Shown here: piece after piece, positions 25,833 through 29,620 of the stretch
How positions within the stretch are numbered: position 1 is the first letter of the stretch
Layout of the letters: the number at the start of each line of letters is the position of its first letter
Position numbers and translations under genes: made by a program
Notes under the pieces: model-generated
Seen by the model: only the letters and a program-made list of their open reading frames with translations
Databases searched by the model: none
What the model was told of the DNA's origin: nothing
From: Micromonospora sp. NBC_01699
GTDB lineage: Bacteria; Actinomycetota; Actinomycetes; Mycobacteriales; Micromonosporaceae
Length of the DNA stretch: 64,000 nt
Direction: 5' to 3'
Assembly (NCBI RefSeq): GCF_036250065.1
Contig: NZ_CP109199.1
Coordinates: forward strand, 5,642,001 to 5,706,000

Positions 25833-26426
25833 GTGCCCAGAGTGAGCCAGGACCAGCTCGACGCTCGCCGCCACGAGATCCTCGCCGCGGCGCGGGCCTG
25901 TTTCGCCCGCTACGGATACGAGGGTGCCACAGTCCGCCGGCTGGAAGAAGCGACCGGCCTCTCCCGGGGCGCGATCTTCCACCACTTCCGGGACAAGGAC
26001 TCGCTGTTCCTCGCCGTGGCCGAGGACGACGCGGTGGCGATGGTCTCCACCGTCGCCCGCAACGGTCTGGTCCAGGTGATGCGGGACCTGCTCACCAGCG
26101 CCAGCTCCCCGGAGACCGCCGGCTGGCTCGGCAGCCAGCTTGAGGTGTCCCGGCGACTGCGTACCGACCCCGAGTTCGCCAAGCGGTGGGCCGAGCGCTC
26201 GGCGGCGATCGCCGAGGCCACCCGGGACCGGCTGCTCCGGCAGCGCGACGCCGGGGTGCTGCGCGACGACGTACCGATCGACGTGCTGGCCCAGTTCCTC
26301 GAACTCGCCTACGACGGGCTGGTGCTGCACCTGGCCATGGGACGCCCGGCCGGCGACCTCGGCCCCGTACTCGACCTGGTCGAGGAGGCCGTACGTCGAC
26401 CCGCTGGCGGCGGTGCCGCACACTGA
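25833..26426 (+). CDS. acnR: TetR-family regulator, AcnR-like
   Basis: A 197-residue repressor. The HTH (about residues 30-52) reads 'GATVRRLEEATGLSRGAIFH', followed by 'HFRDKDSLFLAVAEDDA'. This stretch and 'LEVSRRLRTDPEFAKRW' closely resemble Corynebacterium glutamicum AcnR as I recall it, the citrate-responsive repressor of aconitase. In corynebacteria acnR adjoins acn; here it is 10 kb away, but a shared 20-bp site upstream of both genes supports the link. The start is GTG 25833, probably leaderless. The Gly/Cys-tail membrane protein gene begins 39 nt after it with its own ribosome site. Confidence 0.82.
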   Translation: MPRVSQDQLDARRHEILAAARACFARYGYEGATVRRLEEATGLSRGAIFHHFRDKDSLFLAVAEDDAVAMVSTVARNGLVQVMRDLLTSASSPETAGWLGSQLEVSRRLRTDPEFAKRWAERSAAIAEATRDRLLRQRDAGVLRDDVPIDVLAQFLELAYDGLVLHLAMGRPAGDLGPVLDLVEEAVRRPAGGGAAH

Positions 26427-26465: not shown

Positions 26466-27365
26466 ATGTGGTCCGTACCCCTGTTCATCTGGTACTACCT
26501 CGGCACCGCGGCGGTCATCGTCGTCGTCGCGCTACTGCACCGGCGCCGGGTCCTCGACCAGCCGCCCGGCCTACGGCTGACCGACCTGACCCCGGCCCAG
26601 GCCGCCTATCTCGACAGCGGTGAACGACTGGCGGTCTACTCCTCGCTGGCCGCGCTGCGCCGAGCGGACGCCGTCGGTGTGACCGCCGACCGCCGACTGA
26701 CCGCCACCGGCCCGCTACCACCCGACGCCAGCCGGCTCGACCAGGCGGTGTACGCGGCAGCCGAGAGCGGCCTGTCCCAGCAGTGGCTGCGCGCCGACCC
26801 GGCGGTGCTGGCCGCCGTCGCCGAGCTCAAACGGGGCCTGGAACAGGCCAACCTGCTGCTCGGCCGGGAGGTTCGCCGGTCCGCCCGCCGGGGCTCGTGG
26901 CTGCTGCTGGGCCTGGTCGCCCTCGGCGCCGCCCGGCTCGGGATCGGACTCGGTCGGGGCGCCCCGGTCGACTACCTCTGGGTGGCACTGGCCCTGGTCG
27001 GGATCGCGTACCTGGTGCTGATCGCCCGGATCCCGCGCCGCAGCCTCGCCGCCGACGCGATGCTCGTCCAGCTCCGGCGTGGCCACCGGCACCTCGCCCC
27101 GGCGATGAAACCCGACCTCGCCAAGCAGGATGCCGGCCTGGTGGCGATGGCCGTCGCCCTGTACGGCGTGAGCGTCATGTCGACGCTGGACCCGGCGATG
27201 GCGCAGGAGGCACGCGACGAGCACGAGTCGACGTACACCGGATCGACCGGTGCGATCGGCTCCGACTTCGGGTCCGGTGACTCCGGATCGAGCGACTCCG
27301 GATCGGGCGGCGGATGTGGAGGCGGCGGTGGCGGCGGTGGGTGTGGAGGCGGCGGTGGTAGCTGA
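26466..27365 (+). CDS. TIGR04222-type membrane protein with a Gly/Cys tail (copy 1)
   Basis: A 299-residue membrane protein. An N-terminal helix (about residues 5-24) is followed by a soluble region with 'LTPAQAAYLDSGERLAVYSS', two helices (about 140-190) and a last helix (about 225-245). The final 45 residues are Gly/Ser-rich and end in poly-Gly holding Cys284 and Cys293, the only cysteines in the protein. This is the organisation of the TIGR04222 ('near-uncomplex') family. It is paralogous to the next gene. ATG 26466 has GAGGAG upstream. The adjacent DUF692 enzyme suggests the tail is a modification substrate (inference). Confidence 0.82.
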   Translation: MWSVPLFIWYYLGTAAVIVVVALLHRRRVLDQPPGLRLTDLTPAQAAYLDSGERLAVYSSLAALRRADAVGVTADRRLTATGPLPPDASRLDQAVYAAAESGLSQQWLRADPAVLAAVAELKRGLEQANLLLGREVRRSARRGSWLLLGLVALGAARLGIGLGRGAPVDYLWVALALVGIAYLVLIARIPRRSLAADAMLVQLRRGHRHLAPAMKPDLAKQDAGLVAMAVALYGVSVMSTLDPAMAQEARDEHESTYTGSTGAIGSDFGSGDSGSSDSGSGGGCGGGGGGGGCGGGGGS

Positions 27366-27402
27366 TCCCCCGCTGGTGGCGATGCTGTTCCACAATGGCC
27401 CC

Positions 27403-28317
27403 ATGACGATCAGCGCCGCGTCCCCGGCGGACACCTGGGGCATCTCCGGGCCAGCCTTCCTCTTCCTGTACGTTGCCGCAGCCGGCCTGTTGATCCTCGC
27501 CGCCGTGGTGCAACGTGCCATCGTCTTCGCCGGTCGGCGCGACCTGGCGGCGAACCAACTCACGCCGGAGCAGGCCGCCTACCTCAACGGCGGCGAACGG
27601 CTCGCCGTCTACGCCTCGCTCGGCAAACTGCGCGCCGCCGGCTCGGTCGGCACCAGCGCCCAGGGACGCACCCTGGTCACCACCGGCCCGCTGCCGGCCG
27701 GAGCCACCCGGCTCGACCACGCCGTCCACAACGCGGCCGGGCAACGGATCCGGCCTCGCGACCTGGCCACCCACCAGTGGGTCCGGGCCGCCCTGCACGA
27801 CATCCGGCGGCAACTCGAACACGTCGGGCTGGCGCCGACCGCGGAACAGCGCCGGGCCGCCCGCCTGTTCCCGCTGCTGCTGCTCGGCCTGCTGGCCGTC
27901 GGTGTGGCCCGGTTCATCGCCGGGATCATCGGGGACAAGCCGGTGTTGTTCCTGTTCGTGCTGCTCATCGCGCTGGCGGTGACCACCCTGATCCTGCTGG
28001 GCTCGGTGCCGAGGAACACCCGCGCCGCCCGGAGCGCCATCAGGACGCTCAAGGGGCAGCATGCGCACCTCTCCCCCAGCTCCCACCCGTCGTACCACAC
28101 CTACGGCGCGACCAGTGCCGCGTTCGGTGTGGCGCTGTTCGGCGGTGCCGCGCTCTACGCCCTCGACCCGGGCTTCGCCGCCGAGGCGGAGGTGCAGCGC
28201 AACCTTGCCAGCGGCAGCAGCAGCGACGGCGGCGGCTCCTCCTCCGACGGTGGCAGCAGTGGCGGCGACAGTGGTGGTGGCGGGGGCTGTGGGGGCGGCG
28301 GGGGGTGCGGCGGATGA
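27403..28317 (+). CDS. TIGR04222-type membrane protein with a Gly/Cys tail (copy 2)
   Basis: A 304-residue paralogue of the preceding protein with the same plan: an N-terminal helix (about 17-42), 'LTPEQAAYLNGGERLAVYAS', two central helices (about 150-200) and a last helix (about 232-252). A Ser/Gly/Asp tail ends in poly-Gly with Cys296 and Cys302, again the only cysteines. ATG 27403 is chosen over earlier in-frame starts, with CACAAT 6 nt upstream. Its TGA overlaps the ATG of the DUF692 gene (ATGA at 28314-28317), so substrate and enzyme would be made together. Confidence 0.82.
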   Translation: MTISAASPADTWGISGPAFLFLYVAAAGLLILAAVVQRAIVFAGRRDLAANQLTPEQAAYLNGGERLAVYASLGKLRAAGSVGTSAQGRTLVTTGPLPAGATRLDHAVHNAAGQRIRPRDLATHQWVRAALHDIRRQLEHVGLAPTAEQRRAARLFPLLLLGLLAVGVARFIAGIIGDKPVLFLFVLLIALAVTTLILLGSVPRNTRAARSAIRTLKGQHAHLSPSSHPSYHTYGATSAAFGVALFGGAALYALDPGFAAEAEVQRNLASGSSSDGGGSSSDGGSSGGDSGGGGGCGGGGGCGG

Positions 28318-29135
28318 GCCTGCCCGCGTACGGCGTCGGGATCGGCTGGCGGCCGGAGATCTCCGGTTTTGTCGCCGAGCTGCCCGGACTCCGCTTCGTC
28401 GAGGTCGTCGCCGAAACGGTAGCGGCCGACGGGCCGGCACCGGCGGCGCTGACCGCACTGCGCGAGCGCGGCGCGGTGGTCGTACCGCACGGGGTGCGGC
28501 TCTCCCTCGGCGGCGCCGAGCCGGTCGAGCCGGACCGGGTGACCCACCTGGCCCGGGTCGCCGAACTGCTGGACGCGCCACTGGTCAGCGAGCACATAGC
28601 GTTCGTCCGGGCCGGTGGCGTCGAGGCCGGTCACCTGCTGCCGGTGCCGCGTACCCGCGACGCCGTCGACGCGCTGGTGGAGAACATCACCCGGACCCAG
28701 GCGGAGCTGCCGGTGCCGCTCGCGCTGGAGCCGATCGCCGCGCTCTTCGACTGGCCGGACGACGAGTTGGGTGAGGCGGAGTTCCTCACCGAGATCCTCG
28801 ACCGGACCGGTGCGCTGCTCCTGCTCGACATAGCGAACGTCTACGCCAACGCTCGCAACCGGGGCACCGACCCGGTCGACCTGCTCGACCGGCTGCCGCT
28901 GGACCGGGTCGCGTACGTGCACGTCGCCGGGGGTGCCGAGCACGACGGGATCTACCACGACACGCACACCGACCCGACCCCCGCGCCCGTGCTCGACCTG
29001 GTCGGCGAGCTGTGCGCCCGGCACCGGCCACCGGCGCTGCTGCTCGAACGGGACGGGCGTTACCCACCGGCGCAGGCGCTGCGCGACGAACTCGACGCGA
29101 TCGCCGCCGCCGCCGGCTACCCGGCGATCACGTGA
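28314..29135 (+). CDS. DUF692 multinuclear non-heme iron oxidase (MNIO)
   Basis: A 273-residue TIM-barrel enzyme of the DUF692 family. Candidate metal ligands appear in order in 'VVPHGVRLSLGG', 'LVSEHIAFVR', 'LALEPIAALF', 'LLLDIANVYANARN', 'YVHVAGGAEHDGIYHDTH' and 'LLLERDG'. Known members (MbnB, TglH) use two or three iron atoms to modify cysteine residues of peptide substrates oxidatively, usually with a small partner protein. Here the enzyme overlaps the second Gly/Cys-tail gene and the following small gene at start-stop codons, so all probably form one functional unit. The actual chemistry is unknown. Confidence 0.88.
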   Translation: MSLPAYGVGIGWRPEISGFVAELPGLRFVEVVAETVAADGPAPAALTALRERGAVVVPHGVRLSLGGAEPVEPDRVTHLARVAELLDAPLVSEHIAFVRAGGVEAGHLLPVPRTRDAVDALVENITRTQAELPVPLALEPIAALFDWPDDELGEAEFLTEILDRTGALLLLDIANVYANARNRGTDPVDLLDRLPLDRVAYVHVAGGAEHDGIYHDTHTDPTPAPVLDLVGELCARHRPPALLLERDGRYPPAQALRDELDAIAAAAGYPAIT

Positions 29136-29620
29136 GCGGGGACCGGCCACCCGTGGGCGGGGACCGGCCACCCGGTCGAGACCGGCTCGCCGCCCGACAG
29201 GCGGAACTGGTCGCGGCGCTGGTGTCCGGGGCGCCGGTGCCGACCGGCTTCGACACCCGGCTGGTCGGGGCGGCCCGCGACGCGCTGCTGAACAAGCGGG
29301 CCGGTGACGTCGGCCGGCACTGGCCGATGCTCGCCGCCGGGCTGGGCGCCGCCTGGCTGCCCACCTTCCGTACCTTCGCCGCCAATCGACCGACCACCGG
29401 CTCGCTGCGCGACGGCTGGGAGCTGGCCCGGGAACTGGCTGCCGCCGGTCGGCTGCCGGGGCCGGCGGCCGAGGAGCTGGCCGTCCGGGAGGCGACCTGG
29501 CGCTACGACGGCGCCTCGAACCCCCGGCCCCGGCGCGGTCCGGCGCTCGGTCGGGCCGGTGGGACCCTGGTGGTCCGGGTGGCCGGGCGGGTCCGGGTGC
29601 TGCGCGGCGGGCGCGGGTAG
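29132..29620 (+). CDS. small protein coupled to the DUF692 enzyme, candidate partner
   Basis: A 162-residue soluble protein starting at GTG 29132, overlapping the DUF692 stop (GTGA). After a duplicated N-terminal GGDRPP segment it is helical: 'RQAELVAALVSGAPVPTGFD', 'ALLNKRAGDVGRHWPMLAA' and 'WELARELAAAGRLPGPAAEE', with a basic C-terminus. Size, helical content and position match the partner proteins (MbnC-like, DUF2063-like) that deliver substrates to MNIOs, but sequence similarity cannot be proven by eye. It may bind the membrane-protein tails. Confidence 0.7.
   Translation: MSGDRPPVGGDRPPGRDRLAARQAELVAALVSGAPVPTGFDTRLVGAARDALLNKRAGDVGRHWPMLAAGLGAAWLPTFRTFAANRPTTGSLRDGWELARELAAAGRLPGPAAEELAVREATWRYDGASNPRPRRGPALGRAGGTLVVRVAGRVRVLRGGRG

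Follow-up and report, generated by a model that had tools for sequence, protein, structure and literature searches.

A TIGR04222, MNIO and partner gene cluster in Micromonospora as a candidate system for modifying the cysteine tails of membrane proteins

Results

The window, by which we mean the whole 64,000-nt stretch of Micromonospora sp. NBC_01699 (NZ_CP109199.1) analysed here, contains four genes on the plus strand that encode, in order, two TIGR04222 membrane proteins (A and B), an MNIO (DUF692) enzyme of the MbnB/TglH/ChrH family, and a 162-aa protein. TIGR04222-A (299 aa) is encoded at 26466..27365 and TIGR04222-B (311 aa) at 27382..28317, with an alternative start for the latter at 27403; the enzyme (273 aa) follows at 28314..29135 and the 162-aa protein at 29132..29620. 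The enzyme gene starts within the stop of TIGR04222-B in an ATGA overlap (28314-28317), and the gene for the 162-aa protein starts within the stop of the enzyme gene in a GTGA overlap (29132-29135), which confirms the layout given in the initial annotation. A and B are 42% identical. With gaps of 39, 16 and 34 nt, there is no room between the genes on the plus strand for a separate short precursor gene. In the genome (8.28 Mb, one contig), these two proteins are the only TIGR04222 matches at E ≤ 0.001, and no second MNIO was seen.

The TIGR04222 profile scores A at 120.8 bits (6.5e-35) and B at 141.7 bits (2.7e-41), against an NCBIfam cut-off of 43 bits. In both proteins the domain is followed by a low-complexity Gly/Ser/Cys tail at the C-terminus, located at 27240..27362 in A and at 28210..28314 in B (left borders set by eye), the latter ending in CGGGGGCGG. 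The tail cysteine codons lie at 27315-27317 (C284) and 27342-27344 (C293) in A, and at 28288-28290 (C303) and 28306-28308 (C309) in B. For counting, we examined every TIGR04222 ORF with a stop and scored a Cys tail where the last 30 residues held at least two Cys and at least 60% Gly+Ser+Cys. Among the 524 ORFs of the window, A, B and one shadow ORF have such a tail. Across 181 loci it is present in 157 of 206 closed TIGR04222 ORFs, against 8 of the 10,050 remaining closed ORFs that reach 100 aa, and some of these 8 themselves resemble tails in the same loci. The tails exceed what GC content would give by chance and are specific to TIGR04222 proteins. In a filtered set of 126 MNIO-linked genes (the filter is described below), the commonest spacing of tail cysteines is C-x5-C, and exactly two residues follow the last Cys in 100 of the 124 genes with tail Cys; in a separate set of named MNIO loci, drawn from the best 80 of 572 relatives, 60 of 73 genes encode a protein that ends in CGG. 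A structure search with an AlphaFold2 model of TIGR04222-B (pLDDT 86.7) returned generic helix-bundle matches only. An A-x-A signal-peptidase site after the last helix, within DPxFAxEA, was considered as a tail-specific cleavage site and rejected, because DPxFA is also found in Cys-less paralogues without a local MNIO.

The identification of the third gene product as a DUF692 enzyme is borne out by its match to PF05114 (268.8 bits, 5.6e-80; cut-off 25), and its closest solved structures by sequence are TglH (8hci, 4.2e-29) and 3bww (7.4e-26). Among NCBIfam models BufB scores best, with 187 bits, below its equivalog cut-off of 310. Twelve chosen site residues, all kept in the window's enzyme, were compared across 132 aligned rows (131 loci, the window counted twice), and each is identical in at least 130 of them; H59, H94, E139, D172, H203, D216 and H218 are present in all 132, and E245 in 131, with one gap. 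These His, Asp and Glu residues are the presumed iron ligands, as read off the enzyme's alignment with 8hci and 3bww.

No Pfam or NCBIfam model matches the 162-aa protein at E ≤ 1. Encoded directly after the MNIO and free of the DUF2063 signature, it fits the description of a PME-type 2 partner and is treated here as a candidate of that kind. Its family is present at 130 of 131 MNIO loci and never without an MNIO; at the single miss (L262, in genome G672), another search found a short partner match beside the MNIO (2.4e-9). Enzyme and partner are fused into one ORF at 26 of the 131 loci. A scan seeded with the enzyme alone, covering the best 80 of 572 relatives and partly overlapping the genomes already sampled, recovered the partner at 80 of 80 named loci and TIGR04222 at 70; the remaining 10 begin at the edge of a contig. 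In a survey of 394 genomes of the class, 88 hold the partner family, all of them together with an MNIO, and the partner is found in 77 of the 79 genomes that hold both TIGR04222 and MNIO, a survey in which TIGR04222 may be under-counted (seven candidates per genome scored). Fisher tests on these genome counts take no account of relatedness, and we do not read them as probabilities. A lack of co-occurrence beyond close relatives, which the initial annotation had named as refuting its reading, is not what we find: enzyme, partner and TIGR04222 occur together in class genomes and outside the window's family. The partner role of the 162-aa protein is supported by this co-occurrence and by the enzyme-partner fusions.

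Within the window's family, the MNIO loci share further neighbours: TetR at 79 of 85, HAD at 76, ABC at 56, SDR at 54, UDG-like at 49 and nitrilase-type at 34, the HAD, UDG and ABC names being presumed. None of these six tested neighbours is metal-related, and none turns up at any of the 46 MNIO loci from other families, where TIGR04222, enzyme and partner stay together. No conserved protease or exporter was seen at these loci, with the reservation that outside the family the BLAST clustering of neighbours was swamped by shadow ORFs.

Tail cysteines go with the enzyme, with exceptions. Counted by locus, a Cys tail is found in 105 of 105 cases where the enzyme is unfused, in 19 of 26 where it is fused and in 19 of 48 with no local MNIO; counted by gene, the figures are 119 of 126, 19 of 31 and 19 of 49. 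Two of the 181 loci (L147 and L172) were left out of the locus count, as their ORFs continue past the contig end; Cys is present in the visible part of either tail, and no MNIO was seen locally. In 20 of 20 genomes where a Cys-tailed locus has no MNIO nearby, an MNIO was found elsewhere. Inspection by eye of 20 distant loci gave 8 with Cys tails, each in a genome that holds MNIO and partner, the MNIO of one (G427) being a fragment; the 12 without a Cys tail comprise 11 from MNIO-less genomes and one, G590, with an MNIO that has no partner beside it. When ORFs were read in the 30 sampled genomes with TIGR04222 and without MNIO, the Cys tail was absent in 28, several MNIO-less genomes having Gly-rich tails free of Cys; MNIO-less G462 has a Cys tail, with the contig ending nearby, and the ORF in G426 is cut off by the contig end. 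Overall, 30 of 109 TIGR04222 genomes have no MNIO, and 15 of 94 MNIO genomes have no TIGR04222 match.

Seven of the 26 fused loci (L217, L219, L224, L228, L235, L238 and L261) are counter-cases, in which the enzyme is paired with a Cys-less TIGR04222 protein. All 12 chosen site residues are intact in these seven enzymes, and no Gly/Cys-tailed ORF was found within about 5 kb on each side. Two of the genomes concerned, G161 and G334, contain a further, weaker TIGR04222 site. Loss of the tail cysteines where the enzyme is kept, which the initial annotation had named as evidence against a tail substrate, is therefore seen at these 7 of 26 fused loci. Earlier counts of MNIO-linked genes with at least two tail Cys (121 of 124 and 123 of 126) were too favourable and have been replaced by the every-ORF count, because a filter requiring the profile end had removed unfavourable genes. 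This filter took out 42 and 39 of 208 genes; 31 of the 39 were MNIO-linked, and these 31 included the Cys-less proteins from six counter-case loci out of seven. A tree-based test of independent pairs on the earlier filtered gene set had six usable pairs and was underpowered and not significant. The sampled loci were picked by their TIGR04222 match, and two thirds come from one family; the coupling of tail cysteines to the enzyme is strong in counts and not proven against shared descent.

Some loci carry the tail on a different protein. In 11 genomes with partner and MNIO, a repeat search in which nearly all candidates were scored found no TIGR04222 over the cut-off, and in 6 of these a Gly/Cys-tailed ORF adjoins the MNIO or the partner. 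At L419, L420 and L421, from one genus, the genes for enzyme and partner flank one for a tailed protein of about 99-119 aa that has a single hydrophobic helix, and at L425 a one-helix tailed protein of about 90 aa follows the partner; at L423 and L424 a Gly/Cys-tailed ORF, cut by the locus end, precedes the fused enzyme. No Gly/Cys-tailed ORF was found in the 1.5-kb flanks at L416, L417, L418, L422 or L426. The initial annotation's remark that there is no free precursor peptide is thus correct for the window and fails at four related loci (L419-L421 and L425), where the tail is borne by a protein of about 90-119 aa.

Discussion

We consider it likely that the four genes form a minimal unit in which the MNIO and its 162-aa partner oxidatively modify cysteines of the TIGR04222 tails, a reading of the sequences that draws on gene order, family membership, the near-obligate linkage of enzyme and partner, their fusions, and the coupling of tail cysteines to the enzyme, exceptions included. 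The MNIO and partner would recognise the TIGR04222 proteins, and their complex would oxidise cysteines in the Gly/Ser/Cys C-terminal tails, giving a membrane-tethered row of modified cysteines. We infer that a modification occurs, that cysteine is its target and that a metal such as copper is bound by the product; gene linkage does not prove the chemistry. According to PMC12668002, PME-type 1 relatives make 5-thiooxazoles on copper-binding peptides, and by analogy a 5-thiooxazole is our best guess for the product. It is an uncertain one for the window's enzyme, because enzymes with PME-type 2 partners carry out other chemistry according to Antoine et al. 2025 (PMC12452194). The simplest use of such a product would be a metal-binding membrane tail.

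That tail cysteines are the substrate had been proposed in the initial annotation, and the proposal gains from the co-occurrence, the gene fusions, the natural controls without Cys and the one-helix carriers, while the Cys-less proteins at 7 of 26 fused loci count against it. These same loci, in which the enzyme has a Cys-less TIGR04222 protein as its neighbour, and the Cys tails at loci with no local MNIO would suit another explanation, namely that MNIO and partner modify some other part of TIGR04222 or another protein in trans, and that the Cys tail is an unmodified metal- or redox-active tail co-selected with the enzyme. We regard this as unlikely, given that an MNIO is found elsewhere in 20 of 20 genomes with a Cys tail and no local one, that Gly-rich tails lacking Cys occur in MNIO-less genomes, and that in the one-helix proteins the tail alone is retained next to MNIO and partner. 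It is very improbable that the genes are neighbours by descent with no functional link: the surrounding genes are indeed conserved as well within the window's family, TetR above all, but the six tested are absent from the 46 MNIO loci outside it, where TIGR04222, MNIO and partner persist, and the enzyme-partner fusions also argue against mere synteny.

On which side of the membrane the modified tail of our preferred reading would reside is a separate matter, as the topology signs concern the side of the membrane and not whether the tail is a substrate. The topology of Antoine et al., in which the tail, once modified, is exposed outside the cytoplasm and resembles a membrane-anchored bufferin, seems to us to have slightly less than an even chance of being right. 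It agrees with loop charges, which place the tail outside in 21 of 55 aligned proteins, those with four called helices (32 of the 55 had three), and with the AlphaFold2-based reading in PMC12452194. Against it, the last helix is marginal, with a median apparent insertion energy of +1.3 versus -1.5 for the first helix and -2.0 for the second and third, and it reaches a hydropathy of at least 1.6 in 43 of 196 cases versus 194 and 196 for the other helices (full profile matches only). In the AlphaFold2 model of TIGR04222-B the last helix is broken at residue 254. In the one-helix tail carriers, arginines directly follow the helix, so that by the positive-inside rule the tail is predicted to be cytosolic. 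These weak signs, new here, may indicate that the Cys tail stays cytosolic and membrane-tethered, an anchored array of modified cysteines that is never released and is neither a secreted RiPP nor a periplasmic tail, a picture we offer tentatively and hold to be less likely than not. If it were correct, the one-helix carriers would be the minimal form of the system, and export ahead of modification would no longer pose a problem.

Antoine et al. 2025 (PMC12452194) have described TIGR04222 membrane proteins encoded next to an MNIO, for the most part in Actinomycetota, and put forward the C-terminal Cys-rich segment of TIGR04222 as an MNIO substrate. The substrate idea is thus already published as a hypothesis and is not new; among the literature matches listed, no experiment on modification of TIGR04222 tails was noticed at the level of title and abstract. 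Their TIGR04222-MNIO-PME-type 2 loci resemble ours in families, in taxa (Micromonospora examples) and in the proposed Cys-tail substrate. Their paper defines the PME-type 2 partners, one example being a 158-residue protein from Micromonospora, predicts them in at least 10% of TIGR04222 loci, and describes many TIGR04222-MNIO loci as apparently partner-less and the tails as predicted to be periplasmic. In our survey the partner is present, partly as fusions, in nearly all genomes with TIGR04222 and MNIO, and such a near-universal partner is new here relative to theirs. One-helix forms and enzyme-partner fusions were not seen in the sections of PMC12452194 consulted, though the former might belong to its adjamnio-V group of very small proteins.

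The bufferin/captophorin systems (DUF2282 or another precursor, BufB and a DUF2063 partner) likewise have an MNIO and a partner acting on Cys of a ribosomal product. They differ in that the window's enzyme falls under the BufB cut-off and that the candidate substrate is a multi-helix membrane protein instead of a Sec-exported peptide; a search of 148 class genomes, that of the window among them, gave no DUF2063 (PME-type 1) match at E ≤ 1e-5. Compared with MbnB-MbnC (methanobactin) and TglH-TglI, the window has no small precursor gene, and searching the PDB with the partner profile gave no sequence match.

The published survey (PMC12452194) asked how TIGR04222 is modified when a partner seems to be missing. 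Since the partner was nearly always found here, reconstitution is well defined, with enzyme, partner and tail as its components, and the one-helix proteins of about 90-119 aa are simple candidate substrates. Enzyme and partner occur in 88 of the 394 sampled class genomes, 77 of them with TIGR04222. If the proposed reading is true, a sizeable share of actinobacteria would use MNIO enzymes to modify integral membrane proteins.

Results and Discussion

The count of linkages between TIGR04222 membrane protein genes and MNIO (DUF692) enzyme genes may be too low in draft genomes, because their assemblies seem to break within the DNA that encodes the Gly/Cys tail. Among the 80 named contigs, which represent the best 80 of 572 enzyme relatives, 10 begin 1–64 nt upstream of the MNIO gene (loci L306, L324, L331, L342, L345, L352, L359, L366, L370 and L371), and at these contigs the tail-coding DNA appears to be the break point.

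Directly upstream of the four-gene unit in the window lies a gene for a TetR-family regulator (25833–26426), and a TetR gene was likewise found at 79 of the 85 MNIO loci of the window's family.

Loci at which the MNIO and its partner are fused in one reading frame can carry two TIGR04222 genes, one encoding a Cys/Ser/Gly tail and the other a protein without cysteines, as at L216, L223, L225, L230 and L233 (family f4, genus g8). Another kind of MNIO, scoring about 366–370 bits against PF05114, occurs in the sampled genomes G590, G610 and G649; in G590 the partner family is absent beside this enzyme, and the Gly tail of the TIGR04222 protein has no cysteines. A Tsukamurella record labelled as a plasmid (NZ_LR134462.1, locus L377) carries an annotated run of three genes, for TIGR04222, DUF692 and a short hypothetical protein; judged by eye, this last protein resembles a truncated form of the partner.

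At locus L287 of genome G427, the Cys tail of the TIGR04222 reading frame continues in frame into a stretch that, judged by eye, resembles the partner family. Elsewhere in the same genome there is a fragment of an MNIO, as well as a match to the partner family. The arrangement at L287 looks as if an enzyme gene that once stood between TIGR04222 and partner had been lost.
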